This document shows, in pieces, positions 6,094 to 21,512 of a stretch of DNA of 47,458 bases. Position 1 is the stretch's first letter, and each line of letters starts with the position of its first letter. Under the pieces are notes generated by a model, which did no database searches, was not told the DNA's origin, and saw only the letters and a list, made by a program, of their open reading frames with translations. The stretch is from positions 1-47,458 of the forward strand of contig JAUXVN010000083.1 in NCBI GenBank assembly GCA_030684555.1, in the 5' to 3' direction. This stretch comes from Ignavibacteria bacterium (GTDB taxonomy: Bacteria; Bacteroidota; Ignavibacteria; Ignavibacteriales; Ignavibacteriaceae). The position numbers and the translations under genes are program-made.

Positions 6094-6097
6094 TTTA

Positions 6098-7513
6098 TTA
6101 ATCACAGAAAAACTTTTCTGCGTTTATAATTGATTCTCTGTCTGAGATTTGTAAAATATTTTCAACATAGACTTTTTTTCTCATCCCAACTAATACAGAA
6201 CTTACTTCTTTCAAAGAGAGCAGCATTAAAACGGCTTTTTGTGAGAGGTCAAATGATTGTTCTTCTTTGTTCAAATATTTTTCAAGTTTAAACTCAAGCG
6301 GTTTAAAAAACTTTTTATTCATTTGTGCGATATGACTTTGAATTGCATCCAAAAGAATATTTGAAGTTACAGCATAAGTATTGAGTTGATTTAATAATGG
6401 GCTGTCTTCAACTCCAAGTTTTTCCAAAGCAGAAAGAACGTAATTAGCTCTTGGAATAAAATATTGTTGCTTCATCTCTAAAAAATGAGTCGGACTATCA
6501 AACTTAGAAAAGTAACCCGATAAAATTTCTCCGAGTGATAAGCAGTCGAAATAACTTTTTAAGTCCGCATTCCCAATGTTGTATACCGAAATAGCAGTTT
6601 TAATTTTTTCTTCAATTGAAGCAATATCTTTAATGAGTTCAATAATCTCTTTTTTAGTATAATTTTCTTTTATTGGAAATGAAGTTAGACGATGAAGTTT
6701 TCTTTTTACAATAGCATTTAATGGTCGATTTATCAATACTCCAATTCCATTCTCATGTGCTATTGTTAAAACGGATTTTTGTTCATGATTATTTAATCCC
6801 CCCTTTTCTAACAGGTTCATCGGTAGTTGAATCACGGCAAAATGATTTGTAGAAGAAACTTCATTGGCAATTTTTAGAACTTGTTCGAGTGAAGTAAAAT
6901 CAATTTCATCTTCAGCTGATGGAAAAGTATTAGATGATATTCCGTAATATGAAATTCTTCCTTTAGTTACTTCTTCTTCAAGAAACATAAAAGCATTTTT
7001 TATACGATTGTAATATTCCTTTCGATGTGCTTCCAAATTATCGAAATTGGAATAATTCAAAAAATATTCGGGATTATGCAAAAGGTAAACATCAATTCTA
7101 TTTAGTTGAAGTCGTTCTAACGAATAAGTGATTTGATCTTTCAGAAATTCAGGACTAATACAATGCCATAAATCGGGGGAGCATTTTACAACCTCCGTGT
7201 ATGGGTTTCCGTTGATCTCACGTTGTTTGGCAATTTCTAAATTCTTCCCTTGAATATATCCCCCTTTGGAAACGATTACTATTTCATCCTGATCAATTAT
7301 CTTCTTGTTAAAAAAGTCTGTTAAGATTTTTCCGATTAATATTTCGCTGCCGCCGTCCGAGTAATTTGAGGAAGTATCGAATAAATTAATTCCATTTTTT
7401 AGAGCATGTTCAATTGCAGTAACGTGTTCTTTAATTCTATTATCAACACGATAAGACCCAAAACCGATTTTTGAGATTTTTAGTCCGGTTTTGCCGAGAA
7501 TTGAATATTTCAT
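6098..7513 (-). CDS. Aldo/keto reductase with long C-terminal extension
   Basis: The N-terminal 280 residues or so form an aldo/keto reductase TIM barrel. The start (YSILGKTGLKISKIGFGSY) is typical, and the tetrad can be read as Asp46, Tyr51 (FDTSSNY), Lys83 (VSKGG) and His146 (LLHNPEY). Such enzymes reduce carbonyls with NADPH. At 471 residues it is much longer than the usual 280-330: there is a helical insertion after residue 280 and a C-terminal segment with VSSVLVGMRK, the usual AKR closing motif, near the end. The CSPDLWHCISPEFL stretch before the helix holding His146 is shared with a large-AKR subgroup. Substrate unknown. A small basic protein gene is divergent from it. Confidence 0.8.
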   Translation of the reverse strand: MKYSILGKTGLKISKIGFGSYRVDNRIKEHVTAIEHALKNGINLFDTSSNYSDGGSEILIGKILTDFFNKKIIDQDEIVIVSKGGYIQGKNLEIAKQREINGNPYTEVVKCSPDLWHCISPEFLKDQITYSLERLQLNRIDVYLLHNPEYFLNYSNFDNLEAHRKEYYNRIKNAFMFLEEEVTKGRISYYGISSNTFPSAEDEIDFTSLEQVLKIANEVSSTNHFAVIQLPMNLLEKGGLNNHEQKSVLTIAHENGIGVLINRPLNAIVKRKLHRLTSFPIKENYTKKEIIELIKDIASIEEKIKTAISVYNIGNADLKSYFDCLSLGEILSGYFSKFDSPTHFLEMKQQYFIPRANYVLSALEKLGVEDSPLLNQLNTYAVTSNILLDAIQSHIAQMNKKFFKPLEFKLEKYLNKEEQSFDLSQKAVLMLLSLKEVSSVLVGMRKKVYVENILQISDRESIINAEKFFCD

Positions 7514-7599
7514 AATACCTCAGTTAGGGGAAGAAATTTCATTTTTATTTCGCTTCATTTTTTAATATTTTTAGATTCAAATTTAAGGAGAATAACGAA

Positions 7600-7764
7600 A
7601 TGGCAAAACAGCAGAGCTTTTCTGATAAAGCTAAAGGCAAAAAAAGAGATTCCAGTGTTAATGTGAAGGTTATTAAAACCATGAAAACCGGAAAAGGAAG
7701 TTTTAAATTCAATGAAAAATTTGTAAAACTTGACGATATAAGTAAAGTCACAGACATTAAATAA
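7600..7764 (+). CDS. Small basic protein, 54 residues, possibly ribosome-associated (DUF4295/bL38-like)
   Basis: AAGGAG at 7585-7590 sits 9 bases before the ATG, and a good terminator follows, so this is a real transcription unit although short. The product (MAKQQSFSDKAKGKKRDSSV..., ending DDISKVTDIK) is rich in lysine and has a core (VKVIKTMKTGKGSFKFNEKF) that resembles, from memory, the small Bacteroidota DUF4295 proteins reported as an extra large-subunit ribosomal protein. The resemblance is weak, so treat function as unproved. Divergent from the aldo/keto reductase gene. Confidence 0.65.
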   Translation: MAKQQSFSDKAKGKKRDSSVNVKVIKTMKTGKGSFKFNEKFVKLDDISKVTDIK

Positions 7765-7781
7765 TTTCCCTCGAAATTAAA

Positions 7782-7806
7782 AGAAGCGGTTCGACCGCTT
7801 TTTTTA
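7782..7806 (+). terminator. Rho-independent terminator of the small basic protein gene
   Basis: Stem AAGCGGT (7784-7790), loop TCG, stem ACCGCTT (7794-7800) running into a T tract, 18 bases after the stop codon. Confidence 0.9.
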
Positions 7807-7852
7807 TTTTAAATCCTCACTAATGACTTTTGTTATATTTTACCCAAAATTT

Positions 7853-7960
7853 TCAATAGAAAAAAGTAGTTAAGTTTTTGTGTAGTGATGAGTAGAAGAT
7901 TTTTTTCTCCTTAACTACAAAAACAATTTGGACATATGTTTGTGAATAGGTGTCTGGCAT
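7853..7960 (-). pseudogene. Truncated second RAYT transposase start
   Basis: Reading from 7960, the frame begins MPDTYSQTYVQIVFVVK and stops after 35 codons. The first 16 or so codons match the intact RAYT at 8813 (MPNTYSQIYIQIVFTVN) with scattered changes, and the DNA upstream of both starts is also alike. The match ends near 7905; beyond it the frame is unrelated and stops. It is a relic of a second transposase copy that lost everything after its first strand. Confidence 0.75.
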
Positions 7961-8011
7961 AATACCCCTTCCGTTTTAAATGAAATTATTAAATATTTTC
8001 ATACACAGGTC

Positions 8012-8344
8012 GCTCCTACGGAGCTCTGTTTCATTGGTTGTATCATTTCTACAAACAGTTTGCCCCGATGGGGCTGAATTCTTTTCATTCTTTATGCTTC
8101 TTTGGATTTACAAACAGTTCGTTCTTTAGAAAATGAATAATGTTTTGTACAATAACTGTATTATCATTTTGTTTTTAGCTCCGTAGGAGCTTGCTGTTTG
8201 TAGCATGGATAACAAACAAAATATTTTAGCTCCGTAGGAGTTTTCTGTATGTAGCAAGGCGAAAAATGAAAACTATTTTAGCTCCGTAGGAGCTTGCTGT
8301 TTGTAGCATGAATAACAAACAAAATATTTTAGCTCCGTAGGAGC
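8012..8344. repeat. REP-like hairpin array, left side of the RAYT gene
   Basis: Thirteen-base imperfect palindromes: GCTCCTACGGAGC (8012), GCCCCGATGGGGC (8062), a decayed unit near 8120, then GCTCCGTAGGAGC-type units at 8178, 8229 (last base changed), 8281 and 8332. The last four are spaced 51-52 bases apart, with repeated rather than unique text between them. Most are flanked by the conserved 10-mer CTGTTTGTAG or its complement, which carries a GTAG tetranucleotide like that at the foot of enterobacterial REPs. Confidence 0.85.
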
Positions 8345-8351
8345 GGTCTGT

Positions 8352-8813
8352 TCATTCTATCCATTCAAACAAATACTTTTCATCATAATCAATCGCATAT
8401 TTTTTTAGAAATTCCAGATATTCTTCCTTAAAACTTTTTTTCTTGTGATGCTCTTGCTGGTTCAAAATATAATTGACAACATTATCAATATGACTCCGCG
8501 AATAAGAAAATGATCCAAATCCTTCCTGCCAATTAAATTTTCCCTTCATCCATTTGTTATCATTAATAAATTTAGAGGAGCCTGCTTTTATATCCCGCAC
8601 TAAATCGGAAACGGCAATTGATGGTTGAAGCCCAATAAAAATATGTGTGTGGTCTGGCATGCAATAAATTGCCAACATCTTTTGTCCACGGTTTTGAACA
8701 ATACCCGTAATATATTTGTGAAGCTCTTCCCGATGGTCATTTGGAATTAAATTCTGTTTCCCATTAACGGTAAAAACAATTTGGATATATATTTGCGAAT
8801 AGGTATTCGGCAT
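8352..8813 (-). CDS. REP-associated tyrosine transposase (RAYT, IS200/IS605 TnpA-like)
   Basis: A 153-residue Y1 transposase of the HUH superfamily. His55-Thr-His57 in CMPDHTHIFIGL is the metal-binding HUH motif, and Tyr115 in NVVNYILNQQEHHKKK is the expected nucleophile. The ending (EYLEFLKKYAIDYDEKYLF) is typical of the Bacteroidota branch. These enzymes cut single-stranded DNA beside REP hairpins and are thought to spread REPs rather than themselves. Consistent with that, the gene lies between two REP arrays, and its last codons run into a REP at 8332-8344. All catalytic residues are present, so the enzyme may be active. There is no IS200-type partner gene. Confidence 0.9.
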   Translation of the reverse strand: MPNTYSQIYIQIVFTVNGKQNLIPNDHREELHKYITGIVQNRGQKMLAIYCMPDHTHIFIGLQPSIAVSDLVRDIKAGSSKFINDNKWMKGKFNWQEGFGSFSYSRSHIDNVVNYILNQQEHHKKKSFKEEYLEFLKKYAIDYDEKYLFEWIE

Positions 8814-8871
8814 AATTCACCTTCCATTATAATTGAAAATTACTTGATAAAATATTTATGCATATAGGCCC

Positions 8872-9340
8872 GCTCCTACGGAGCTTATTTATTTTGGCTA
8901 TTTCATTGCTACAGACAGTGCGCCCCGATGGGGCTATATTCATTTCATCCTTTTTGCTCCGTTGGATTCTACAAACAGTTCTTTCCTACGGAACTGAACA
9001 ATATCTTTTCAAAACACTAACAATATCAGTGCGTTTATTTAGCTCCATAGGAGCGGACAGTTGCTTCTTTATACACATGAAAATTTACAATTGTTTCCTT
9101 TACATGTCGCTCCGATGGAGCTGTGTTGTGATATATGATTTTTATCTACAAACAGTGCGCCCCGATGGGGCTATATTCATTTCATGTTTTTTGCTCCGTT
9201 GGATTCTACAAACAGTTCGTTCCTACGGAACTGAATATTATCTTTTCAAAATACCAACAATATCATTTCGTTTTTAGCTCCGTAGGAGCTTACTGTTTGT
9301 AGCATGAATAACAAAATAAATATTTTAGCTCCATAGGAGC
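8872..9340. repeat. REP-like hairpin array, right side of the RAYT gene
   Basis: Units at 8872 (GCTCCTACGGAGC), 8922 (GCCCCGATGGGGC), 8956 (GCTCCGTTGGATT, decayed), 8982 (TTTCCTACGGAAC), 9042 (GCTCCATAGGAGC), 9109 (GCTCCGATGGAGC), 9159 (GCCCCGATGGGGC), 9193 (decayed), 9219 (GTTCCTACGGAAC), 9277 and 9328. The same order of unit types appears twice here (8872-9054 and 9109-9289) and once left of the gene. Several changes are compensatory: GCTCC/GGAGC, GCCCC/GGGGC and GTTCC/GGAAC arms all keep pairing. Confidence 0.85.
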
Positions 9341-9351
9341 GGTCTGTTGTG

Positions 9352-9897
9352 CTATCCTTCTACAATATTTATTTCTTCCTCCGTCAATCCGTACAGCTCA
9401 TAGACAAGCGTGTCTATTTGTCTGTCTAATCCTTTGCATTTCTTTTCTAAGTATTCTTTTTCGTTGTCTGTTTTGGTAGTTGACAATTGCTTTTTTGAAT
9501 CGAGCATTTGATCGACTAAGTGAACAAGGTGATCATGAATAGTTTTTTGATCTTCTGAAATCCTCCTAATTGGCAGTTTTCTTAATTCTGCTAAAGTCGT
9601 TTGCCTGAAATCATCTTTTGTTGCAATAGAAGAACTGTTAAGATATAACCAAGAAAATAATTTGCAGTTTATTAGTGCAAGGAGATACTTCGTATCAAAT
9701 TCCTGACTATTTAATATAAATGGATTGAGATCTTTCTTAAAAACACCTGCTTCATTAAAGTATACAGCATCTATTCTATCTTGTCTGTTAATAATTCTTC
9801 TTATGAGTATTTTTTCTTTCTTCTCGTAAAACAAAAACAGTGATTTCAGCTTTTGTAAATCTACATGATAACCATTATCAATTAAAAAAAATAACGC
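9352..9897 (-). pseudogene. C-terminal fragment of a type IIG restriction-modification enzyme (TaqI-like specificity domain)
   Basis: The frame is open from a stop at 9898-9900 down to the stop at 9352; only a TTG (9834) could start it. The product has the tail of an Eco57I-type fused methylase-nuclease: KEKILIRRIINRQDRIDAVY, the target-recognition segment FDTKYLLALINCKLFSWLY with SIATKDDFRQTTLAELRKLPI, a coiled-coil helix, and the characteristic end LVYELYGLTEEEINIVEG. The nuclease and methylase domains, about 800 residues in complete enzymes, are absent. The stop codon lies 12 bases from the last REP unit, so REP or RAYT activity may have accompanied the truncation. Non-functional on its own. 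Confidence 0.75.
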
Positions 9898-10052
9898 TTA
9901 ACAGTTGCATTATAAAAAGGTAAAGTCCATTGATCGTTTAAATTTGTTGTAACTGCAAAAGACTCGCCCTGACGCTTCCTACCCGATTAAATAGTAATAC
10001 ACCCCTACTATCCATTCCCATCGAGAATGAATATTTTTGTTCAATTAACTTT

Positions 10053-11889
10053 TTAATCCTTGAGGCAGCGGATACTAAAACCGAATTCCTTAGTACCGTG
10101 GGACAAATGGATACCACTATTATCGTACTCCAGACCTGTATCGTACGCATACGGTTCATCATACTTTGTAGAGGTCCAAAAATAAGTGTTATATCTTAAA
10201 CTGACGAAACTTACATTGTTATTTTCATAGTAGCGCCAGCCAACAAGCAATGCAGAAAAACCGCTGATGTTTGTGCCTATTCCGTTTCCAGTTCCTTGTC
10301 CTACTTCTTTTAACGTGTTGCCATCATTGTTTACTTCTGCTTTTAGTGTCCCGTACTCTGCGTATGTTGGTATGTGCCAACCCGTAGGACAAATTCCTTT
10401 TGTACCAGGTGATGTGTTGTATGACATCGCTTCATTCCATTGATACAGACCACCATAGGTTGTACAATTTGAAAGATCATTGTCATAACAATATTTCTCT
10501 ATTACCCCATTATTACTTGCATTTTCAGTTCCTTGAATCATAACACCAACATCAAGGTTTTCCTTAAGCCAGCATTGGCTGCCAATTTGAACGGTATGGT
10601 ATGTTTTTCCATCATATGTTACTATGGGCGTTCCTACACAAGCCCTCCTTGCCTGGAGTTGTGAACGACCAAATCTCACTTTCAACTGACTTGCCAAAAC
10701 TATTTACTGCAATCACCCGCCAAAAATATTTAGATATTTTAATTAAACCTGTTATTTGTTGGCTTGTGTTTGTTAAGCCACTTTGGTTATAAACAAAATT
10801 TGAGAATGAACTATTTTTTGAAACTTGTAAAGTATAATTAGTTGCTCCCGAACTTGCATTCCAAGTAAGTGTAAGTAAAAGTTCAACATCAGTTGCACCA
10901 TCATTTGGTGTTAATAAAATTGGTGTATCGGGAGGTGAACCAGTTGTAAAACTCCAAACATCTGAGGGAGTTGATGTTCCATAATTATTTGTTGTGCTTA
11001 CCCGCCAATAATATTTTGTAGAATTAGTTAAACCCGCTATCTGTTTGTTTGTTATTGTAACATTTTGACTAAAAACAAAGCTTGAAAAAGAATTGTTAGT
11101 TGAGACTTGCAGAATATAACTCGTTGCTCCACTGCTTTCGTTCCAGGTAAGAGTTGGAGAAAGTGATATATCAGTTGCACCATCTGTCGGAGATAAAAGA
11201 ACGGGTGGAATGGGTGTAACTCCGGTAGTAAAAGTCCAGGTTTCCGACCAGCCCATTGAACCAAAATTATTCGTTGCACTTACCCGCCAGTAATATTGTG
11301 TTAACCCGCTTAATCCCGTTATTTGTTTTGAGGTTGCAGTTAATGTATCTGCATTAAAAACAAAATTTGTAAACGAACTGTTTGTTGAAATTTGTAAAGT
11401 GTATTTGCTTGCATTACTTATTATGTCCCAAACTATAACGGGAGAAAGATTTTGCTCAATCGCTCCGTTCGTCGGTAGAGATAATTGAGGAACAAACGCT
11501 GGCGCATCACCGGTAGTGGTAAAACTCCACACTTTTGACCAGTCGGATGTGCCTACACTATTACTTGCATTAACTCTCCAATAATAAACTGTTAAATAAT
11601 TTAGTTCCGGGATTTGTTGAGTTGTCGTAGTAATATCGCTTTTATTGAATACAAAACTTGAAAACGAACTACTTGCTGAGATTTGTAAAGTATAATTTTT
11701 TGCTCCGCTGCTTTCATTCCAGTTTAAAACAACTGGAATGGCAATATTGGATGAAGTATCTTTTGGTGTTGCTAAGGTTGGCGGAGAAGGAATCGTGTCT
11801 GTGTTAACGGGATTGCTTGCATCCTTTTTACACGATGTAAATGCAAGGAGAGAAACAAGAATAAAATAAATTACATTTTTCACATACAA
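10053..11889 (-). pseudogene. FN3-repeat lipoprotein with FISUMP domain, split by a frameshift
   Basis: The first reading frame (11889 to 10612) encodes a lipoprotein signal with lipobox LAFTSC-KK, then four fibronectin-III repeats of about 92 residues, each ending (Y/F)WRV...W(S/T)FTT. It then runs into an unrelated tail. The second frame (to 10053) holds a complete FISUMP domain (GTPIVTYDGKTYHTVQIGSQ, CWLKENLDVG, GICPTGWHIP, ...GFSIRCLKD). The total length is one base over a multiple of three. Removing one base of the CCC run at 10643-10645 joins them as TTPGKEACVGTPIV, giving 611 residues. Such proteins sit on the outer surface; their function is unknown. The start is TTG 11889 or GTG 11883. 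The shift may be genuine or a sequencing error. The 9898-10052 gap beyond it holds nothing recognisable. Confidence 0.8.
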
Positions 11890-12013
11890 CTTTTTTTGCT
11901 TTTTAAGTATTTTTTTTGCAACCCAACTTATTTAGGACAAAAACTTTTTTTTATTTATTTTTAATCAGAATCCTATTTCTATTAGTCGTAAATGGTTGTT
12001 TGTTATTCGGTTT

Positions 12014-13339
12014 TTACAAATATGGTTTTATTTTTTCATAAACTTCTCTATACGTGTAGGGATCGGTATCAGTATAAAATTCCAATAACTGATAATTATG
12101 TTTTTCACAGATTATTTTTTTCCTTTTATCATTTAATTGACGTTTCCGCAAGCCTTCTTTTCCTCCCAAATGTTTGAATTCTTCATAATGTTGTTCACCT
12201 TGACATTCAACTGCTAATTTACGGGAGGGAATAAATATATCTATTTCTAATCCTTCAAATTCTTTACCTCTATAATGATGGATAACTTCCTCATTCATAA
12301 ATATTTCGTCAATTATTTTGAATAGAATATTTTCATTTATTCCAAGTTTCCCAATCGGTGGGAAACAAAATATTTTTCTAACAATATTTTCTATTTCATT
12401 TTCTTTTTCTCGTTCTGGTAATATATCCCTCCAGTTAGGATACTTATTACCATAAATTTTTCTTCGATATAATTCAAAATATGGATAATATTTCTTCTGA
12501 AATACTGATTGTCCCCAATAATTAAGTTTAGGTGTTTTATGAGTGCATATATGACAAATACCATTTACGATTTCAATTTGCTTTATATGTTTTACAAATA
12601 TCTTTTCAAACGAATAACTTAAACGAGAAATATCGTCCCTAACCTTAAAATAATTTTCGAAACAATTACAAGTATATAATTTCCCGGTAACTCGATTAAT
12701 AAAGAGAATAGGATAACCTGCATAATTGAAATTAATTTCATCCAAATCATTTATGTTCAATATATAATCAGAATAATATTTTTTTGTAATTGGGGTTAAT
12801 AATTCTTTCGATAAAAACAATCCTAAGATTGAGAAATAACATTTGCGTTTGCGTGAAGATATATGATGTGAATAACCGTTGAAATATATCCCATCTTCTG
12901 AAGTTATTTCAATATCATAATTTTCAGAAACTACTGGGAAAGCAAAATTACCAATTGAAAAAGAATCAAAGTTAGCAAAAGGATAATATGATGGGAAATA
13001 AGTTATATCTCTTTCTCGATTTGAAGACGACATACTATCAAATTCAAATCCACGTGTTGCTAATGACTGTAACAATGTAAAACTACTATGATATTCATCT
13101 TCAATGGGATGAGTTTCAATAATTTTACCTGTGCCCAATTGAGTATAATTTGCCAGAGGTTCAGTTAATAATGGAATTTCTGATTCTATAATTTTCTTGT
13201 TTAACTCTAAATAAAAACAATTCCTTAAATCCATAAAAAAATTTATTCTTTCATTTTCTGGATAAGAGAATGTATTTTCTAAGGCAGAAAAAACCATTGC
13301 TTTTGAAATTTCAAGACGATATGTTTTAACTATTTTCAA
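12014..13339 (-). CDS. Predicted PD-(D/E)XK nuclease with Cys-pair region, possible defence protein
   Basis: This is a 441-residue protein of no family I can name. The C-terminal 120 residues look like a Vsr/DUF559-type endonuclease: Asp367 in LEIDIFIPSRK, then Glu378 and Gln380 in AVECQGEQHY, followed by a basic helix (KEGLRKRQLNDKRKK) and a last strand (YQLLEFY). Cys224/Cys226 (YTCNC) and Cys262/Cys265 (GICHICTHK) could bind a zinc ion. The first 200 residues are beta-rich and unrecognised. The first codon is TTG; an ATG at 13297 would remove 14 residues. A HEPN gene lies 126 bases upstream on the same strand. Codons are very AT-rich, suggesting transfer. Confidence 0.6.
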   Translation of the reverse strand: MKIVKTYRLEISKAMVFSALENTFSYPENERINFFMDLRNCFYLELNKKIIESEIPLLTEPLANYTQLGTGKIIETHPIEDEYHSSFTLLQSLATRGFEFDSMSSSNRERDITYFPSYYPFANFDSFSIGNFAFPVVSENYDIEITSEDGIYFNGYSHHISSRKRKCYFSILGLFLSKELLTPITKKYYSDYILNINDLDEINFNYAGYPILFINRVTGKLYTCNCFENYFKVRDDISRLSYSFEKIFVKHIKQIEIVNGICHICTHKTPKLNYWGQSVFQKKYYPYFELYRRKIYGNKYPNWRDILPEREKENEIENIVRKIFCFPPIGKLGINENILFKIIDEIFMNEEVIHHYRGKEFEGLEIDIFIPSRKLAVECQGEQHYEEFKHLGGKEGLRKRQLNDKRKKIICEKHNYQLLEFYTDTDPYTYREVYEKIKPYL

Positions 13340-13465
13340 TTGATATGTTTAGACTTAACAATACATATTATGTTAATTAAATTGATAATTAGGACAAAGC
13401 TTTCTTTTACAAACCACACTGAACAACAAAGTCAAAAGCGAAAATGCTCTTGGCTTGTTTTTCGT

Positions 13466-14221
13466 TTATATACCTTCTTCTTCCAAAGAGTTAAAAAGAT
13501 TTACGAAAAAATTATCCGCATTTCTAATCACTTCGATAATATAATTACGACTTAAATTAATTTGACCAAATAAATCAAATGATATGTGTTCATTTTGTTC
13601 AATAATTAACATAACTTTTTTCGATTGCTCTGAATCGTCAATAATACCACCGTTATGTATAATAAAATTTCTAATAATTTGATATTCACGGAGCAATTTC
13701 CATTCATTCGAGATGTTGAAATCGAAATGAATATTAAGAGCTTTGTTAATATAATTTTTAAACGAATCTAAAGTACTTCCTCTTAAATCATCCCATTTAA
13801 GAGAACATTTGAGTTCTTTTTTAACTACATCACAAGTTCGTCTTAAACAATCTTCGAAATGTGCTAAAACCATTAAATATATGGATGACATTGCTATTCG
13901 TTCAAAATTCAGTTTCGCTTCAAATAAATCTCCTTCTAATTTTGCAATATTCAACTCAATTCCAATTTGACGATTGAATTCTTTATATGTCTCTGGTTCA
14001 ATCCTTTCTAAATTTTCCAAATCGCTAAAAGATTTATATCCACGCGAATATACTTCGTTTTTGAATGTAGGATTATATTGATTTTTCAAAGACAGCAATA
14101 AAGTTGCATCATCATTAAAATCCTTCTCAAGTAAATCAGGTAATTTATTAACTAAGTTTCCTAATGCTATAAATCTTAGATGAGTCCAGTCAATAATATT
14201 TTCGGAATTTATTTTCATCAT
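13466..14221 (-). CDS. HEPN-domain protein (predicted RNase-like), possible partner of the adjacent nuclease
   Basis: About 251 residues, almost all helical. Near residues 178-190 the segment LREYQIIRNFIIHNGG carries the R-x4-H signature of HEPN domains (Arg184, His189), with the usual preceding helix (IYLMVLAHFEDCLRR). HEPN proteins with this motif are often metal-independent RNases in toxin-antitoxin or abortive-infection systems; others are only structural. ATG 14221 (or 14218) is preferred over the TTG at 14224. It is followed on the same strand by the predicted nuclease, so the two may be one unit. The gap 14225-14373 upstream is AT-rich without a clear feature. Confidence 0.65.
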   Translation of the reverse strand: MMKINSENIIDWTHLRFIALGNLVNKLPDLLEKDFNDDATLLLSLKNQYNPTFKNEVYSRGYKSFSDLENLERIEPETYKEFNRQIGIELNIAKLEGDLFEAKLNFERIAMSSIYLMVLAHFEDCLRRTCDVVKKELKCSLKWDDLRGSTLDSFKNYINKALNIHFDFNISNEWKLLREYQIIRNFIIHNGGIIDDSEQSKKVMLIIEQNEHISFDLFGQINLSRNYIIEVIRNADNFFVNLFNSLEEEGI

Positions 14222-14373
14222 CAATGTTTAATTAAGTTGCACCATTTAGTTAAATCAAGAATACATTTATACAAGGTGTAGCTTACATACATTTAAATTG
14301 TTTCATTTTCTGTTCATCAAAATACTATTTAAAAATCTTTTTCCCCGCCCAAAGCGTAGATAACTTGCACCAA

Positions 14374-14922
14374 CTATTTCCTCCCATACTTAACTCCCTT
14401 TTCTTTTACCTCAAACCCAATTTTTCTTTTTGGCGCGGGAGGTGGAGCTAACAACTGATTTATCGCTTCAAAGATTGCAGTTACCTGTTCATCGTGCGTT
14501 TCAATTTTATACTCTAACTCTTTTAACTTTTGTGCCAACTCTTTGTGCGTAGATAATATTTCTCTCAACTTAACAAACGCCTGCACAACAAAAATACTTG
14601 CCTCTATCGCTCTTTGTGAATTAAGAACAGACGCCAGCATTAAAGCGCCATACTCCGTAAATGCAAATGGCAAAACGGTTGAATGTTTTAGAGAATTGAA
14701 CCGGTGCCAATTTGTCACCAGTTCCTTTTTTTCACTATGAGTCAATTGGAACATAAATTCTGAAGGGAATCTCTCTGGATTTCGTTTAACCTGCCGGTTA
14801 AGATTTTTTGTTTCCACTCCATACAACTCTGCCAGATCACGGTCAAGAATTACTCTTTGTCCACGGAGTAAGAATATCCTGTTTTCAATTCGTTCTGTTG
14901 GTGCTATTTCGTTTATGCTCAT
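14374..14922 (-). CDS. ORF6N-domain DNA-binding protein (copy 1, intact)
   Basis: A 182-residue protein with an N-terminal ORF6N domain (about residues 10-100: RIFLLRGQRVILDRDLAELY, GVETKNLNRQVKRN, FQLTHSEKKELVT, then LPFAFTEYGALMLASVLNS), a coiled-coil (THKELAQKLKELEYKIETHD) and a basic proline-containing tail (PPPAPKRKIGFEVKEK). ORF6N domains are KilA-N-like DNA-binding modules first seen in phages. This copy is intact. It is the left member of a long direct repeat; the right copy at 15924-17636 is disrupted. An unusual palindrome lies about 80 bases upstream of its start, in both copies. Confidence 0.85.
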   Translation of the reverse strand: MSINEIAPTERIENRIFLLRGQRVILDRDLAELYGVETKNLNRQVKRNPERFPSEFMFQLTHSEKKELVTNWHRFNSLKHSTVLPFAFTEYGALMLASVLNSQRAIEASIFVVQAFVKLREILSTHKELAQKLKELEYKIETHDEQVTAIFEAINQLLAPPPAPKRKIGFEVKEKGVKYGRK

Positions 14923-15003
14923 CTTTCTGCTTTTTCTTTCTTATCGAACTATTAACTTCTCATTTCCATTATTTACCTACATAGTTAACTACCTTCTCTT
15001 CTA

Positions 15004-15030
15004 CTTGATGTTCCAAATTGGAACTTCAAG
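15004..15030. promoter_or_regulatory. 27-bp palindrome upstream of ORF6N copy 1
   Basis: CTTGATGTTCCAA-A-TTGGAACTTCAAG pairs in 12 of 13 positions. An identical palindrome lies at 17718-17744 upstream of the damaged copy. Position and symmetry suit an operator bound by a dimer, perhaps the ORF6N protein itself; that is inference. Confidence 0.45.
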
Positions 15031-15074
15031 TTTGTAAACTCTTGCTTGGTTGTTTGGGTTACAAAATCTAATCT

Positions 15075-15110
15075 AAACCTCCGACATTTTCAAAACGCCG
15101 GAGGTTTTTT
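15075..15110 (-). repeat. 33-nt palindrome (copy 2 of the dispersed family)
   Basis: The left arm starts AAACCTCCGACATTTT, with a central C at 15091 and right arm AAAACGCCGGAGGTTT, then a T run on the + strand. Two positions are mismatched. It lies at the outer end of ORF6N repeat copy 1. Confidence 0.75.
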
Positions 15111-15114
15111 GAAC

Positions 15115-15260
15115 TTACTGTACCGGTGGCGGTGGCATTTGGTTATCCTCATCCGGTTTTGTATGCGTCGCGCCGTAATTAAGAACTTCGCGCACTACTT
15201 TATGCCGGTTATAAAAGTCGAGGTGATTTTCTTTTAATGTTTCTGCAAAGCCGTCTTCTG
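15115..15260 (-). pseudogene. Decayed C-terminal coding remnant, family unknown
   Basis: One minus-strand frame reads EDGFAETLKENHLDFYNRHK and continues through VVREVLNYG to a stop at 15115-15117 after MPPPPVQ. The composition looks like real protein, but there is no start, and the frame is broken upstream. It resembles the tail of a larger protein that I cannot name. It fills part of the 430-base gap between the ORF6N start and the toxin gene; that gap otherwise holds the palindromes and a terminator. Confidence 0.35.
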
Positions 15261-15282
15261 GTCTTTAACTTGCCAGTTTTCA

Positions 15283-15307
15283 AAAAAGAACATAGCAAAA
15301 CGCTATG
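15283..15307 (-). terminator. Terminator of the RelE-type toxin operon
   Basis: On the minus strand CATAGC and GCTATG (15291-15307) form a six-base stem, followed by TTCTTTTTT. It lies 47 bases after the toxin stop codon. Confidence 0.7.
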
Positions 15308-15353
15308 TGTTAATTATTATTTAAGAACTTAGTAACCGATAAAAATTTCTTTG

Positions 15354-15602
15354 TTATTTATAAATGTTTTTTCTGTGCCCAATTTTAAGTACGATAATTT
15401 TATTTTCTTCAATATCAACTATTACTCGATAATCTCCAACCCTATAACGAAATGTGCCAATTTTAGGATCGGAAAGTTTTCTTGCATGCAAAAATGGGTT
15501 TAAAGAATACTCCTTTAATTTCTTTGCAATTTGTAAACCGGTAATTGCGTCCAGCTTCTTAAGCTCTTTTGCAGCTTTCTCAGTAACAACAATTTCAAAC
15601 AT
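15354..15602 (-). CDS. RelE/ParE-family toxin
   Basis: An 82-residue toxin of the RelE/ParE superfamily: a start strand (FEIVVTEKAAKELKKLD), a helix pair, and the core strands TFRYRVGDYRVIVDI and IIVLKIGHRKNIY. The Arg/Tyr-rich FRYRVGDYR segment and the final GHRKNIY are typical of the mRNA-cleaving RelE branch, where these residues contact RNA. It overlaps the antitoxin frame by 8 bases, so the two are translationally coupled. Its presence between two ORF6N repeats points to a mobile toxin-antitoxin cassette. Confidence 0.88.
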   Translation of the reverse strand: MFEIVVTEKAAKELKKLDAITGLQIAKKLKEYSLNPFLHARKLSDPKIGTFRYRVGDYRVIVDIEENKIIVLKIGHRKNIYK

Positions 15603-15810
15603 TAAACAAGTCTTCTAACTTTGTTGTCTTTCCGACTGTATATTCTTCTCTTGCTTCTTTAATGGCATTAATATAGTTTGTACTTGACAATGCTTCCATA
15701 TTTTCAATAACTTCTTCAATCGTTTCCTTAACGGTTTCTGAAATTAAAGTTTTCAACTCACCTATTGTCAATTCGTTTATAAGCTGTTGAGAATTCAAAT
15801 GCTCTTCCAT
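15595..15810 (-). CDS. RelB-like antitoxin
   Basis: An acidic, helical 71-residue protein (IGELKTLISETVKETIEEVI...) encoded directly before and overlapping the RelE-type toxin, as expected for its cognate antitoxin. The C-terminal region (YTVGKTTKLEDLFNV) is the kind of tail that wraps around the toxin. AAGGAAT lies about 10 bases before the ATG. The leader beyond it, 15842-15902, is shared with the second toxin-antitoxin operon. There is no recognisable ribbon-helix-helix, so the exact class is uncertain. Confidence 0.8.
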   Translation of the reverse strand: MEEHLNSQQLINELTIGELKTLISETVKETIEEVIENMEALSSTNYINAIKEAREEYTVGKTTKLEDLFNV

Positions 15811-15841
15811 ACTTAAACAATTCCTTCAAAAATTCAATCAG

Positions 15842-15902
15842 TTTTTTATAATTTTTTTATTGTTTGGTTTAAAATATCTAAACCCTATCTATTTTCAAAT
15901 CT
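15842..15902 (-). repeat. Shared leader of two toxin-antitoxin operons, copy 1
   Basis: About 61 bases are repeated at 18391-18452 with one indel and six or so substitutions by eye (shared blocks such as TTTTTTATAAT, GTTTGGT and AAATATCTAAA). Each copy lies about 30 bases upstream of an antitoxin ATG, so it may carry their promoter. Confidence 0.65.
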
Positions 15903-16006
15903 CTAATCCAATTTCTCTTCCATTACTTCCCCGCATACTTAACCCCCTTCTCCCTTACCTCAAACCCAATTTTTCTTTTTGGCGCGGGAGGTGGCGCTAA
16001 CAACTG

Positions 16007-17182
16007 TATGCTCACTTCGTCAAATCTTTCAGTTTCTTTTGTGAAGTCGTGAAATTCGGATCAATTTCAAGCGCTTTTTTAAACTGTGTAATAGCTTCAG
16101 CTTTATTTTCCGCGGCTAAATAACCATCGCCCAGACTATCGTATGAGTTAGGGTTATCCGGATCAAGTTCAACTTGTTTTTTGAATTTCTGAATTGCTTC
16201 GGTAATACGTTTATTGTTTAACAAAAAGTAACCGAAAGAATTATACAATTCACTAAAATCTTTGTTATTCCCAAATTTATTTTCGAGAAACTTAAATTCC
16301 TCTTCCGCTTTTCCCATATTTTTATCAGCAATGTATAACGCGGCAAGCTGTATATGTCCGGCTTTTTCATCGTAACCTATTAATATTTTAGCTTCTTTAT
16401 AAGCCTTCTCCATACTTCCTCCCATAATGTCGGGAGCCATGCGATAAAAATTAATTAATCCGATTCTACCCTGGATATGCGTAGGACTAATTTGAACCGT
16501 CTTCATGTATTCATCTTTTATTTTTGGCGCAAGCTTAATTTTGGTGAAGATACTGGAGTTTACGGCATCCATACCCATAGCTTGAGCAAACCAAAAATGA
16601 TAATCGGCGTTATTGTAGTTAATTTTAATTGCTTCTTCAAATTCATCCGAAGCTTCTTCATAATCTTTCTGGCGTAATAAAGTCCTTCCTAAATAAAAAT
16701 GAGCTTCAGCATTATTTTTATCTTTACTGATCAATTTCTCGAACATTGATTTTGCTTCGTTTAACTTATTGTTTTGTAGAAGATTTTTTGCGGAATTAAT
16801 ATCCTGCGCAAAATTCATCGAAACCAAGGTTAAAACTAAAAAGGCAAATACTATTTTTTTCATTATCACTTTCCTATAAATAACTGAGTTTAAGAATTCT
16901 TTCCTGCACTGAACAAATTAATTATGCTATCAAGCTAATAAGTACCAATATATAGCTACAATTACCGAATATCAAAAACACAAAATCATTTTATCTCTTT
17001 ATTCTGTGTCCGGTCATAATTTTGTTTATAGATTTGAAGATTTGGGTGATTGATTTCCTTAGCTCTTAAATAAGCTTTCTCGTAATTCTGATTTGCTAAC
17101 AATAACTGTCCCGCTTTTTCATACGTTTCTACTAAACTATCATAAACGTTAGCCGATTGAGGATAAAGCGTTACATTCTTTG
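16007..17182 (-). mobile_element. 1,176-bp inserted block carrying TPR coding sequence
   Basis: Comparison of the two ORF6N copies gives exact junctions. Copy 1 reads CAACTG-ATTTATCGCTT-CAAAGATTG; copy 2 keeps CAACTG and CAAAGATTG with 1,176 bases between. The block carries the tail of one TPR protein and an entire second TPR gene, whose stop is only 5 bases from the left junction. No transposase, terminal repeats or target duplication are visible, so illegitimate or homology-assisted recombination is more likely than transposition. Confidence 0.7.
16012..16863 (-). CDS. Exported tetratricopeptide-repeat protein
   Basis: About 283 residues. The ATG at 16863 (MKKIVFAFLVLTLVSMNFAQ) gives a clean signal peptide; a GTG two codons upstream is less likely. 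Behind it lie TPR units of about 34 residues: the pair from residue 26 (ARxxFEK...AEAHFYLGRTLLRQKDYEEA) and the terminal ones (NPNSYDSLGDGYLAAENKAEA, LEIDPNF). TPRs mediate protein contacts; a partner is not evident. The middle (DAVNSSIFTKIKLAPK...) resembles periplasmic TPR proteins fed into peptidase or transglutaminase assemblies, but this is uncertain. It lies within the block inserted in ORF6N copy 2 and appears intact. Confidence 0.8.
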   Translation of the reverse strand: MKKIVFAFLVLTLVSMNFAQDINSAKNLLQNNKLNEAKSMFEKLISKDKNNAEAHFYLGRTLLRQKDYEEASDEFEEAIKINYNNADYHFWFAQAMGMDAVNSSIFTKIKLAPKIKDEYMKTVQISPTHIQGRIGLINFYRMAPDIMGGSMEKAYKEAKILIGYDEKAGHIQLAALYIADKNMGKAEEEFKFLENKFGNNKDFSELYNSFGYFLLNNKRITEAIQKFKKQVELDPDNPNSYDSLGDGYLAAENKAEAITQFKKALEIDPNFTTSQKKLKDLTK

Positions 17183-17564
17183 CAAAGATTGCAGTTACCT
17201 GTTCATCGTGCGTTTCAATTTTATACTCTAACTCTTTTAACTTTTGTGCCAACTCTTTGTGCGTAGATAATATTTCTCTCAACTTAACAAACGCCTGTAC
17301 AACAAAAATACTTGCCTCTATCGCTCTTTGTGAATTAAGAACAGACGCCAGCATTAAAGCGCCATACTCCGTAAATGCAAATGGCAAAACGGTTGAATGT
17401 TTTAGAGAATTGAACCGGTCACAATTTGTGACCAGTTCATCTTTTTCTGATTTAGTAAGAATAAACATAAAGTCAGTTGTGAACCTCTCGCTATTGCGTT
17501 TTACTGCCTGGTTAAGGACTTTTGTAGATACTCCATACAACTCTGCTAGATTACGGTCAAGCAT
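16986..17564 (-). CDS. Chimeric ORF: ORF6N domain fused to a TPR-protein tail
   Basis: From the internal ATG 17564 the frame gives 192 residues. The first 128 are ORF6N domain plus coiled coil; the last 64 or so (AKNVTLYPQSANVYDSLVET... to the end) are the last two TPR-like helices of an unrelated protein, entered at the junction 17182/17183. The start lacks the first 22 residues of the domain. It may be expressed as a chimera or be dead; no RBS supports the ATG. Confidence 0.6.
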   Translation of the reverse strand: MLDRNLAELYGVSTKVLNQAVKRNSERFTTDFMFILTKSEKDELVTNCDRFNSLKHSTVLPFAFTEYGALMLASVLNSQRAIEASIFVVQAFVKLREILSTHKELAQKLKELEYKIETHDEQVTAIFAKNVTLYPQSANVYDSLVETYEKAGQLLLANQNYEKAYLRAKEINHPNLQIYKQNYDRTQNKEIK

Positions 17565-17717
17565 TACTCTTTATCCGCGGAGTAGGAGTATCCTGTTTTC
17601 AATTCGTTCTGTGGGTACTATTTCGTTTATGCTCATCTTTCTGTTTTTTCTTTCTCATCGTACTATTAACTTCTCATTTCCATTATTTACCAACATAGTT
17701 AACTCCCTTCTCTTCTA

Positions 17718-17744
17718 CTTGATGTTCCAAATTGGAACTTCAAG
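17718..17744. promoter_or_regulatory. 27-bp palindrome upstream of ORF6N copy 2
   Basis: Same sequence as at 15004-15030 and same distance to the ORF6N start, as part of the long direct repeat. Confidence 0.45.
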
Positions 17745-17788
17745 TTTGCAAACTCTTGCTTCGTTGTTTGAGTTACAAAATCTAATCC

Positions 17789-17821
17789 AAACCTCCGACG
17801 TTTTCAAAACGCCGGAGGTTT
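17789..17821 (-). repeat. 33-nt palindrome (copy 3 of the dispersed family)
   Basis: AAACCTCCGACGTTTT, central C at 17805, AAAACGCCGGAGGTTT; one mismatch. It closes the right end of the ORF6N repeat, followed by T residues, and lies 15 bases from the end of the MazF-type toxin gene. On that strand it may serve as the toxin operon's terminator. Confidence 0.78.
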
Positions 17822-17835
17822 TTTTAGAGCACAAC

Positions 17836-18162
17836 TTATTCAAACTCTTTGCATTTAAATTCAGTACAAAATTCTTTCATTACCTTACCAAATATTTCTT
17901 CTTTTACAACGCCAATTTCTTTTACTAAAAACCTTTTGTGCAGAATACCAATCTTCGGAACAATAACCACAGAAGTTTGTTTTAGCAGTCCTTTTTCCAT
18001 GTCTTCATTATTGATAGTAATTCCTTTAAGCTCAAGATTGGTTGTTAATGGCAGGTAGAGGAAATCTTCGTCTTTATATTCTTTGATTAATAAAATAGGT
18101 CTAAGTTTATAATTGGAAAGATCCGTAAAAAATATCTTGGCGAGGAAAAGTTTTCTTACCAT
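17836..18162 (-). CDS. MazF/PemK-family toxin
   Basis: A 108-residue PemK/MazF-like ribonuclease toxin. The family start (GDIFLAxxPFTD) is represented by LAKIFFTDLSNYKLRPILLI, with the arginine-proline pair (KLRPIL) conserved. The middle strands (DFLYLPLTTN) and the strand KQTSVVIVPKIGILHKRFLV with its downstream helix complete the fold. MazF enzymes cut mRNA at short motifs. It overlaps the antitoxin gene by 7 bases. Sequence divergence from canonical MazF is considerable, so target specificity cannot be guessed. Confidence 0.82.
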   Translation of the reverse strand: MVRKLFLAKIFFTDLSNYKLRPILLIKEYKDEDFLYLPLTTNLELKGITINNEDMEKGLLKQTSVVIVPKIGILHKRFLVKEIGVVKEEIFGKVMKEFCTEFKCKEFE

Positions 18163-18365
18163 GCCGAATAATCCTCGTTATCAATATCTTTAACCAAAAG
18201 AGGCACCGATCCCATTAAAGCTATTTCCGATTCGCTCCAATACAATCCTTTTTTTTCATCAGCATTAGAAAGGATAATAACTTCAACTTCATCCCCAAAG
18301 TTTTCGGGTATATCTATGGTTACTATTTTATTTATGACTTTTTCTCGTTTTCTTAAAGCAAGCAT
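18156..18365 (-). CDS. Antitoxin of the MazF-type pair
   Basis: A 69-residue protein encoded just before and overlapping the toxin. The N-terminal half (VINKIVTIDIPENFGDEVEVIIL) fits a small dimerising beta-rich fold seen in such Bacteroidota antitoxins, followed by an acidic tail (DEKKGLYWSESE...KDIDNEDYSAW). AAGGAAT precedes the ATG. The leader at 18391-18452 repeats that of the RelE-type operon. Confidence 0.78.
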   Translation of the reverse strand: MLALRKREKVINKIVTIDIPENFGDEVEVIILSNADEKKGLYWSESEIALMGSVPLLVKDIDNEDYSAW

Positions 18366-18390
18366 AAAATATTCCTTTAAATAATCTCTT

Positions 18391-18452
18391 TTTTTTATAA
18401 TCTTTTTAATGTTTGGTCTAAAATATCTAAAACATAACTATTTTCAAATCTC
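18391..18452 (-). repeat. Shared leader of two toxin-antitoxin operons, copy 2
   Basis: Partner of 15842-15902, in the same position relative to its antitoxin start. Similarity fades on both sides. Confidence 0.65.
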
Positions 18453-18464
18453 AAATCAAAACCT

Positions 18465-18547
18465 CATTTCTGTTCATTAATTCCCATTCGCGCTAAAGAG
18501 TAACGCTGTACGAACAAACCATCTTGATACAACGCATAGACATCAAC
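18465..18547 (-). pseudogene. Short C-terminal coding remnant
   Basis: A minus-strand frame reads VDVYALYQDGLFVQRYSLAR then MGINEQK and a stop, with a stop codon directly upstream. It looks like the tail of a vanished gene, left in the 308-base gap between antitoxin and ferredoxin. Function unknown. Confidence 0.3.
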
Positions 18548-18586
18548 CTAATTTTCCAAATCACAATTTTGGGTTTAAAATAAAAA

Positions 18587-18660
18587 GAGGCTGATCTTAA
18601 AACCATTTCCGATTACAAGCACCGGTTCCCCTAATGGTTTTAGTATCAGCCTCAAAAAAA
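18587..18660 (-). terminator. Long hairpin after the ferredoxin gene
   Basis: Arms 18587-18607 and 18633-18653 pair in 19 of 21 positions, around a 25-base loop, with A runs outside both arms that become a U tract on the minus transcript. It begins 21 bases after the ferredoxin stop. The stem is much longer than a plain terminator needs. Confidence 0.7.
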
Positions 18661-18673
18661 AGTTGTAGGATTT

Positions 18674-18886
18674 TTAAGCTTCTACAATAGCTTCAACCGG
18701 ACAAACTTCCTGACATGATTTGCAGTCATCACACAATTCACCAACAACGTAAGGGTGATCTTCTGAAAGGGGAGGAGTGACAACTCCGTTTATTTCATAA
18801 TCAATACCCGCATTATAAATTGCTGTAGCCGGACATTCATCCACACATGCATTGCAAGCGATACATTCTTCAGTAATGGTCATCAT
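18674..18886 (-). CDS. 2[4Fe-4S] ferredoxin
   Basis: A 70-residue bacterial-type ferredoxin. Two CxxCxxCxxxC clusters are complete: Cys8, 11, 14, 18 and Cys52, 55, 58, 62, the last cysteine of each followed by proline. The clusters are joined by a longer loop (residues 22-48) than in clostridial ferredoxins, as in Chlorobi and allied ferredoxins that feed electrons at low potential to pyruvate and 2-oxoglutarate synthases. It is a single-gene unit, with a strong hairpin behind it. Either of two adjacent ATGs can start it. Confidence 0.92.
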   Translation of the reverse strand: MMTITEECIACNACVDECPATAIYNAGIDYEINGVVTPPLSEDHPYVVGELCDDCKSCQEVCPVEAIVEA

Positions 18887-19211
18887 TTTTAATTTTCCTA
18901 TGTTAGAATTTTAACTGTTGCCAATAATAAACAAATATAATGCCTAAAAATGAAAGTGATGTTTTTTGTCTAAATTAGACTTGGTGATTCATTAAAAATT
19001 AAAAAGTAAGGATTTATTCGGAAATTGTGATAAAATTAATAGTTGACATACAACAAATATTTCTCATTATTGAAAAATAAGAGCCCCCGATTTTCAATTA
19101 TAAATTTACTATTTAGTCAAGATTGCCATAAAAGAAAAAAGAAAATTTTCAACTTGTAAAAGAAGTTTCTTTCCCGTTAGTTTAACGCCTAAATTTTTCT
19201 AAGGATACAAA
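18887..19211. other. 325-base intergenic region between ferredoxin and tex
   Basis: AT-rich and without coding potential. It holds a short inverted repeat GTCTAA-A-TTAGAC (18968-18980) on the ferredoxin side. A TTGACA at 19043-19048 has only a weak match (ATTATT, 17-base spacer) in the -10 position, as a possible tex promoter. Nothing else seen. Confidence 0.5.
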
Positions 19212-21404
19212 ATGATAATTCCTCAAATTATTGCAAATGAACTTTCGATAAAATTGCAGCAAGTAGATGCAGTTCTAAATTTATTTAAAGAAGGATCAAC
19301 AATTCCATTTATTGCGAGATATCGAAAAGAAACCACAGGCGGATTAGACGAAGAAATTTTAAGAGAAATTGAGGATAGATTAAATTATTTAACTCTACTT
19401 CAAGATAGACGGGAAACCATTCTCAAAAGCATAGAAGAGCAGGGGAAATTAACCCCTGAACTCCAAGCAAAAATAATTGCATGTACTAAATTACAGGAAC
19501 TTGAAGATCTCTATCTTCCTTATAAACCAAAAAGAAAAACACGTGGAACTATTGCAAAGGCGAAAGGTTTGGAACCGCTTGCTCTTTTCTTGCTTGATAA
19601 TCCTATGTTTTCCGGCAATCTCGAGGAAAAACTTGCTGAGTTTATCAATATAGAACTTGGTGTAGAAACAATTGAAGAAGCATTACAAGGGGCAAAAGAT
19701 ATTATTGCGGAAATGATTTCAGAAGATGCTGAAGTTCGTAAAGTGGTTCGAGAAATATTGCTTGATACATCAATTGTAAAAACCGAAAAAACTAAAGAAA
19801 GTGTTTCTGCCGAAACGGCTAACGAAAAGTTAAAGGAAAAAGATAAAAAAGAAGTCTATCTGATTTATTATGACTTTAATATTGATATAAAAAAAATAAA
19901 ACCTTATCAATTACTTGCAATCAATAGAGGTGAAAAGGAAAAATTTCTCAAACTCCATTTTCAATTTGATGAGATAGAAATCCATAAAAACATCAAAAAA
20001 ACATTTCTGAAATATGATGAATCTTTTTTTATGGAAATATTTCAGACTGTAATTGAAGATTCATTTAAGCGTTTAATTTTTCCGTCTATCGAAAGAGAAA
20101 TGCGCAACTATTTAACGGAAGCGGCTGATCTTCATGCCATCGAGATTTTTGCAAATAACCTGCGGCAGCTTCTTTTGCAGCCACCATTCTCAGAAAAAAT
20201 TATTATGGGAATTGATCCCGGATTTTATTCAGGAAGTAAAGTTGCTATAATTGATAAAACTGGAAAGTATATTGATGGCTCCACAATTTATCCACATCCT
20301 CCACAAAATAAAAAATCGGAAGCAGAGAAAATTCTTCTAACCTTTATAAAAAAATATCAAGTTGAATTAATTGCAATTGGTAACGGAACTGCAAGTCGTG
20401 AAACAGAAATGTTAATTGCAGAATTGATTCAATCAAATAAACTTGATTGTCACTATTTAATTGTAAACGAAGCCGGAGCTTCCGTTTATTCTGCATCACC
20501 AATCGCAAAAAAAGAATTTCCCGATCTGGATGCAAGTCAACGTGGAAATATTTCAATTGCACGACGCGTCCTCGATCCTCTTGCAGAGCTTGTTAAAATT
20601 GATCCAAAATCAATTGGGGTCGGGCTTTATCAGCATGATGTTGATCAAAAATTATTAATGAAAAAATTAGACAATGTTGTTGAGAGCTGCGTCAATTATG
20701 TCGGTGTTGATGTTAATACAGCTTCGGCATCTTTGCTGACTTATGTTTCCGGTTTGAATAAACGACTTGCAGAAAATATCGTAAAGTACCGTGAAAAAAA
20801 CGGAAGGTTTAACGGGCGTAATGAATTTATGGATGTTAGCGGAATGGGTGAAAAAGCTTTTGAACAATCAGCAGGATTTCTGAAAATTCCTAACAGCCCA
20901 AATCCTTTTGATAATACATTCATTCATCCAGAATCTTACAAAGCGGCAGAAGAATTATTACAGATGTTCAATATTCAAAAAGAAAAAGTTAAAGAATCCG
21001 GTCCTATGCTTGATTTTTTCATAAATAAAAAAGGGATTAAAAATGTAGTTCAAGAAATTAAAATCGGTGAACCAACTCTAATTGATATTATTGAAAACTT
21101 GAAGAAGCCGGGAAGAGACCCGCGCGAAGAAATGCCTAAACCGATCTTGAGAAGTGATGTATTGAAAATGGAAGACCTCCAACCCGGAATGGTATTGAAA
21201 GGGACAGTAAGAAATGTTGTTGATTTCGGAGCGTTCATAGATATTGGAGTAAAACAGGATGGGCTTCTACACATATCACAAATGGCTAATAAGTTTGTGA
21301 AAAATCCTTTAGAACTTATTCAGGTTGGCGATATTGTTGACATAACAATTCTTCAAATTGATGTAGACAGAAAACGCATTTCGTTGAGTATGAAATCGCA
21401 GTAG
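19212..21404 (+). CDS. tex: Tex family RNA-binding transcription accessory protein
   Basis: A full-length 730-residue Tex/YhgF protein. An N-terminal helical region (FIARYRKETTGGLDEEILRE, LEDLYLPYKPKRKTRGTIAK) precedes the YqgF-like RNase H fold (IMGIDPGFYSGSKVAII). The helix-hairpin-helix segment has VGVDVNTASASLL and ENIVKYREKNGRF. The C-terminal S1 domain (GMVLKGTVRNVVDFGAFIDI, GLLHISQMANKFV) binds RNA. Tex is a conserved cytosolic factor linked to transcription and RNA handling; the exact activity is unsettled. AAGGA lies 6 bases before the ATG. It is separate from eno, with its own upstream region. Confidence 0.95.
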   Translation: MIIPQIIANELSIKLQQVDAVLNLFKEGSTIPFIARYRKETTGGLDEEILREIEDRLNYLTLLQDRRETILKSIEEQGKLTPELQAKIIACTKLQELEDLYLPYKPKRKTRGTIAKAKGLEPLALFLLDNPMFSGNLEEKLAEFINIELGVETIEEALQGAKDIIAEMISEDAEVRKVVREILLDTSIVKTEKTKESVSAETANEKLKEKDKKEVYLIYYDFNIDIKKIKPYQLLAINRGEKEKFLKLHFQFDEIEIHKNIKKTFLKYDESFFMEIFQTVIEDSFKRLIFPSIEREMRNYLTEAADLHAIEIFANNLRQLLLQPPFSEKIIMGIDPGFYSGSKVAIIDKTGKYIDGSTIYPHPPQNKKSEAEKILLTFIKKYQVELIAIGNGTASRETEMLIAELIQSNKLDCHYLIVNEAGASVYSASPIAKKEFPDLDASQRGNISIARRVLDPLAELVKIDPKSIGVGLYQHDVDQKLLMKKLDNVVESCVNYVGVDVNTASASLLTYVSGLNKRLAENIVKYREKNGRFNGRNEFMDVSGMGEKAFEQSAGFLKIPNSPNPFDNTFIHPESYKAAEELLQMFNIQKEKVKESGPMLDFFINKKGIKNVVQEIKIGEPTLIDIIENLKKPGRDPREEMPKPILRSDVLKMEDLQPGMVLKGTVRNVVDFGAFIDIGVKQDGLLHISQMANKFVKNPLELIQVGDIVDITILQIDVDRKRISLSMKSQ

Positions 21405-21438
21405 AAAATTTAGCTTAACAATCTGAATAAAAAAATGG

Positions 21439-21487: not shown

Positions 21488-21512
21488 ATAAAAATTTGGA
21501 AACTCAAATTAG

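Follow-up and report, generated by a model that had tools for sequence, protein, structure and literature searches.

A HEPN-like gene next to a Vsr-fold nuclease gene in an accessory stretch of an Ignavibacteria genome: possibly loosely coupled, but not a fixed pair

When a putative RNase gene and a putative DNA endonuclease gene stand in tandem in a bacterial genome, are they parts of one defence system or simply neighbours? The question is raised by contig JAUXVN010000083.1 (assembly GCA_030684555.1) of an Ignavibacteria bacterium, of which the whole stretch analysed, 47,458 nt, is here called the window. An earlier note, made from the letters of this DNA, had singled out two same-strand genes in tandem as a candidate for an undescribed system, and both open reading frames do exist on the minus strand, 126 nt apart. 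The one transcriptionally downstream (12014..13339, minus strand) encodes a 441-aa EDxHD/Vsr-fold nuclease from a TTG start that lines up with the ATG of a 74%-identical copy in another genome, G314. The upstream gene (13466..14224, minus strand) has an R-N-x3-H motif and encodes 252 aa if begun at its TTG, the likely start being the ATG at 14221, which gives 251 aa. On the coding strand of the 126-nt spacer between them (13340..13465, minus strand) there is a weak terminator-like hairpin at 13452-13433, with two terminator-like sites observed in the scanned region against 0.7 expected.

Both genes lie within 10.8 kb (7814..18572) that is missing from G347, the sole other genome of the genus compared. 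Since matches to window positions 5618-7813 and 18573-21843 are there only 8 bp apart, this stretch is accessory, as had been supposed; it is taken to be an insertion in the window genome, a deletion in G347 being less likely. Besides the pair it contains short repeats and, with the genes named by eye, one like a transposase, a lipoprotein-like one that is split, two of ORF6N type and others resembling toxin-antitoxin genes. The setting originally described, with a broken lipoprotein gene on one side and toxin-antitoxin units on the other, holds in part: the lipoprotein-like gene at 10053-11889 is indeed broken across two reading frames, and on the other side are genes resembling ORF6N and RelE/ParE, named by eye. 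The short-repeat families, with a core like AGCTCCGTAGGAGC, occupy 8011-9349 around a gene at 8352-8813 that is presumably RAYT/IS200-like, the repeats then presumably being a REP-like array. Duplication or recombination inside the accessory stretch is evident from the ORF6N-type genes, which have 300 nt in common at 93% identity (14469-14768 and 17183-17482), and from a third related site, a 95-nt piece at 86% (14375-14469 and 15924-16018).

What kind of nuclease is it? An AF2 model (pLDDT 83.7, pTM 0.82) was compared with solved structures, and its residues 331-441 match Vsr (1cw0: Z 9.9, rmsd 2.3, 101 residues) and the homing endonuclease I-Bth0305I (3r3p: Z 9.6, 94 residues, 23% identity). 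Two mitoribosomal proteins score nearly as high as Vsr (Z 9.5 and 9.1), and Foldseek alone gives no significant match, with 1vsr fourth (E 0.66, probability 0.90). As judged from the model, the C-terminal domain has the Vsr fold. Ahead of it are a zinc site (C224, C226, C262 and C265) and a part, residues ~1-200, without a family match. The Vsr mismatch repair enzyme proper was considered and rejected as an identity, that enzyme being small and single-domain (solved chains of 134-155 residues) whereas the window protein has two further parts. The four cysteines (CxC...CxxC) are the same in all 13 full-length sequences aligned, that of the window among them, as are E336, D367, E378, H384, D404 and K407 (E-D-E-QH-D/K, the Q being residue 383), and all 13 have the N-terminal part in common too; a broken copy, L092, was kept out of the alignments. 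E336, D367, H384 and D404 are those that would occupy the EDxHD active-site positions. A Vsr-like end to a 441-residue protein, a four-cysteine region and Asp367 with Glu378 had all been noticed from the letters, and each is thus upheld by structure match or by conservation. The nuclease gene is under purifying selection: compared with the 74%-identical G314 copy, a simple Nei-Gojobori count gives dN 0.15, dS 0.96 and dN/dS 0.15. Up to E 10, the window nuclease matches nothing in Pfam, NCBIfam or PADLOC, and five related nucleases match nothing in PADLOC 2.0.0 up to E 0.01. In PHROG, the hits of the window nuclease below E 0.01 are phage nucleases with homing or HNH names, together with unknowns.

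The upstream protein is treated as HEPN-like, and that call leans on family-wide invariance, not on the motif alone, because none of the HEPN models in Pfam reaches its cut-off in the members scanned (best 17.8 bits against 28.4, E 0.0033) and RN-x3-H by itself turns up in 18 of 797 called genes of 180-320 aa. All 12 aligned members, the window's among them, have E124, R185, N186 and H190 in TTG-start numbering, the motif being R184-N-x3-H189 when counted from the ATG; the R-x4-H pair (Arg184, His189) first picked out by eye is in this way a family trait. Profile matches below threshold point the same way: some relatives match RiboL-PSP-HEPN (PF18735) below its cut-off, and the window protein itself, with no Pfam or NCBIfam match over cut-off, meets RTasHEPN in PADLOC at a sub-threshold E of 0.037. 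Comparison of the set with PF18735 members by hhalign did not confirm the membership, giving 2.7% probability with the RN-x3-H motifs in register. The single-sequence model is of low confidence (pLDDT 65) and gave no useful fold match, with no HEPN chain recognised among the matches listed. No relative was confirmed in viral contigs, nor in genome contigs searched with the single window protein, where the pattern search was narrow. The window's genome (G000) has a second member of the HEPN-like family, on contig G000:C135 (L028), and also, on G000:C18 (L288), a RiboL-PSP-HEPN protein over its cut-off.

Are the two genes found together elsewhere? Rarity of the two sets of homologues in each other's company is what had been named in advance as telling against the proposal, and rarity is largely what is seen. 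Of 14 loci of the HEPN family, two have an EDxHD nuclease gene alongside, the window's and that of G316; the 14 are drawn from 16 known, matches in a Halomonas plasmid and a Bacillus phage having been set aside, and the EDxHD gene was sought within each stretch, some of which are short contigs. From the nuclease side, both families are at one locus in 1 of 190 cases, the window's own, and the window HEPN family is absent from the stretches of the other full-length nuclease copies examined and from all of G314. The 201 distinct EDxHD loci gave, for a check of the motif, 112 neighbours 150-400 aa long and encoded on the same strand no more than 200 nt away; five of these have RN-x3-H: those of the window, G314 and G316, and two that are read as chance (L107, 162 aa; L162, 386 aa). 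With 2 of 14 HEPN loci and 5 of 201 EDxHD loci, a fixed two-gene system is ruled out.

Yet the window's bacterial family has three different pairings of an EDxHD nuclease with a HEPN-like protein. EDxHD relatives are present in 4 of its 80 genomes (G000, G314, G316 and G356, the last a contig-end fragment), and in three of the four an RN-x3-H gene adjoins. In G314, the 74%-identical nuclease has 28 nt upstream of it a gene for a 212-aa protein with RNSFIH, whose likeness to the window HEPN is not significant (BLASTP E 0.076; 3.2% in a profile comparison of the two sets, with the RN-x3-H motifs aligned), and DNA similarity between the two genomes stops within 15 nt of the nuclease reading frame. 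Beside the gene for a relative of this 212-aa protein in G275 (36-39% identical, RN-x3-H present), no EDxHD gene was noticed. In G316 the order is reversed: the gene of the closest HEPN relative found, 31% identical, follows 23 nt after that of a different EDxHD protein, which has 645 aa and matches TPR weakly. Set against the 18 in 797 motif background, the three pairs are suggestive of a link, albeit a post hoc one from very few cases.

Relatives of the HEPN-like protein have other DNase genes for company. Next to them are HSDR_N (L300, 207 nt away), HNH (L020, 232 nt), an HNH just below cut-off with Mrr (L024, 116 nt), a sub-threshold HNH_3 (L301, 421 nt) and a type IIG-like gene (L198, 556 nt), and in one instance ThsB_TIR (L026). 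A predicted DNA endonuclease gene is within ~450 nt on the same strand in 6 of the 14 loci, window and G316 counted, a raw figure in which two cases depend on HNH matches below cut-off. The pair, then, is not a fixed two-gene system and may belong to one of a mix-and-match kind, because co-occurrence is rare and yet there are the three pairs in one family and the other DNases beside HEPN relatives.

The neighbours of the nuclease are mixed too. Relatives matching mainly its C-terminal half were found in 27 plasmid records and five phage records, and also in bacterial and archaeal genomes, the scans of bacterial, archaeal and IMG/VR contigs yielding counts to be read as 'at least'. As to full-length copies, a search through 245 genomes from the window's class and 321 from that of G543 added none to those of G000 and G543 themselves, partial matches turning up in G484, G515 and G525, and in G000 no EDxHD match was found besides the window nuclease. 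G515 is identical over 3450 nt to a contig named as Ignavibacteria, L070, which agrees with that class for the window. Pfam, applied to the genes beside the full-length copies other than L032, L033, L038 and L039, finds AbiJ_NTD3-TIR (L034), TIR (L035), a trypsin-like gene just below cut-off (L037), AbiGi two genes upstream (L036, with L038 in the same gene order), DnaJ and DUF6037 (L040), TPR (L042) and, in Colwellia (L041), a phage-type S24/HTH repressor. The Colwellia copy is likely a prophage cargo gene, its contig (L041 / L221) being listed as viral in IMG/VR. In all, the gene directly beside the nuclease codes for a HEPN-like, TIR or trypsin-like protein in five of the 13 full-length copies, a raw frequency, and the others show none. 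A broader tally covered 87 of 88 chosen nuclease loci, one being without a match, and retained 77 proteins, each counted once, of 80 aa or more and encoded on the same strand at up to 200 nt; the families listed are varied, with HTH, TIR_2, DnaJ, AbiEi, RmrA, PD-T4-1, one PD-Lambda-4_A and housekeeping types, and with no HEPN family in the 25 listed of 69 Pfam families or of 51 PADLOC families. Two of the full-length copies have features of their own. That of Bacteroidales (L042, 991-2928) has a ~200-aa C-terminal extension, presumably leucine-rich repeats to judge by eye, and the locus of the Flagellimonas copy (L036, 9728-11386), where two tRNA genes follow a 464-aa opposite-strand reading frame, is possibly a tRNA-site island.

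How new is such a combination? Neither protein had matched a nameable system on first sight, and searches agree, with no Pfam or NCBIfam match over cut-off and, in PADLOC 2.0.0, no system component matched by the pair at better than E 0.037; nor was a description of this HEPN-nuclease pair found in the works searched. The theme itself is older. In the part of their survey available, Anantharaman 2013 (PMC3710099) described HEPN with restriction-type nucleases, Vsr included, as domains or as genes, HEPN and PD-(D/E)XK nucleases in defence are dealt with in a section of PMC13092281, and sections of PMC11090510 place HEPN and Vsr-like effectors in related CoCoNuT types, with comparable effector roles in types II and III-B. 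Because PMC3710099 and PMC11090510, so far as the sections available go, describe HEPN with Vsr-type nucleases or effectors, the window pair would count as a variant of a known theme. It resembles the former's modules in joining HEPN with a DNA endonuclease, and differs from those set out in the sections available in consisting of separate genes whose partners vary on both sides among related genomes. From the CoCoNuT systems it differs in that no McrB/C GTPase or helicase was noticed near the locus when ORF lists were inspected by eye. To RTasHEPN (PADLOC DRT) and PF18735 the HEPN-like family is akin in the R-x4-H motif and in its sub-threshold matches; no reverse transcriptase was noticed by eye in those ORF lists, and the scores of the window family are below the curated cut-off of PF18735. 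With Vsr and I-Bth0305I the nuclease has in common the fold of residues 331-441 and the E..D..E..H..D arrangement, and from them it differs by the zinc site, by the 200-aa N-terminal part and by a locus without an intron family match. Of the proposal of an undescribed system, the adjoining of two putative nuclease genes in an accessory stretch is supported; strict pairing is not, and the kind is one that PMC3710099 and PMC13092281, in the parts available, already cover.

The reading that best accommodates this, with a probability of about one half, is that the pair is loosely coupled cargo directed against mobile elements, a DNA nuclease together with an exchangeable growth-arresting effector. 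The nuclease would be a Vsr/EDxHD-fold DNA endonuclease that probably recognises a DNA target through its N-terminal part and zinc site and would cut DNA with the E-D-E-H-D/K metal site, and the HEPN-like protein would probably arrest growth as an RNase that needs no metal. Loose coupling is likely, as the nuclease gene adjoins varied toxic-effector genes and the HEPN gene varied DNA endonuclease genes; we infer the two activities, their joint action and the anti-phage role from such patterns. Counting against the reading are the 2 of 14 co-occurrence, the hairpin between the genes and the reversed order in G316, as well as the lack of confirmation of the HEPN assignment by profile comparison or fold and, for the nuclease, the Foldseek result and the mitoribosomal scores. 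The first two of these speak equally for the main rival, a tentative one of lower probability, on which two independent defence genes have come to be neighbours in one accessory stretch by chance, without functional coupling. That full-length nuclease copies have other neighbours in most genomes read, and that DNA similarity to G314 ends at the borders of the nuclease gene, would also fit it. Chance accounts less readily for three different pairs in one family against the motif background of 18 in 797, and for tight spacing, 23 and 28 nt, in two of the three, few and post hoc though these cases are.

The borders shared with G314 admit another construction, that the nuclease gene alone is the conserved unit and is a free-standing selfish endonuclease of the homing type, with the HEPN gene an insertion neighbour. 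The fold match to I-Bth0305I, the PHROG matches to homing endonucleases and the relatives in phages and plasmids agree with it, and phage homing endonucleases that carry zinc fingers are known (PMC3943268, in the part available). Nevertheless it is improbable, and less likely than either loosely coupled cargo or chance neighbours, for the sites of the full-length copies differ greatly, and several adjoin TIR, trypsin-like, AbiGi or repressor genes. An intron-borne homing gene was rejected, no Rfam intron family scoring above the gathering score in the window and eight related loci; free-standing homing genes need none. Further down the scale, and hardly to be credited, is a toxin-antitoxin-like pair with one protein restraining the other. 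A small HEPN-like protein beside a second gene, with other toxin-antitoxin-type genes near by eye, brings it to mind, yet neither partner is conserved beside the other, a 441-aa protein whose catalytic site is conserved does not resemble an antitoxin, and no nucleotidyltransferase partner was noticed by eye in the window's ORF list.

The loosely coupled reading has a bolder form, modular abortive defence, in which the nuclease would both sense and cut foreign DNA and be wired to interchangeable suicide effectors encoded alongside: a HEPN-like RNase in the window and G314, TIR in two proteobacteria and a trypsin-like protease in another. That the effector differs between the window and G314, within one bacterial family, with the nuclease 74% identical, is in its favour, and we nonetheless regard it as rather unlikely. 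Should it fail, the locus still marks out a nuclease subfamily that is rare and conserved, with 13 full-length copies aligned, several of them beside effector genes, and a window member that up to E 10 matches nothing in Pfam, NCBIfam or PADLOC. Should it hold, with the nuclease as common sensor and the effectors swappable, it would be a compact example of exchangeable-effector logic in bacterial immunity.
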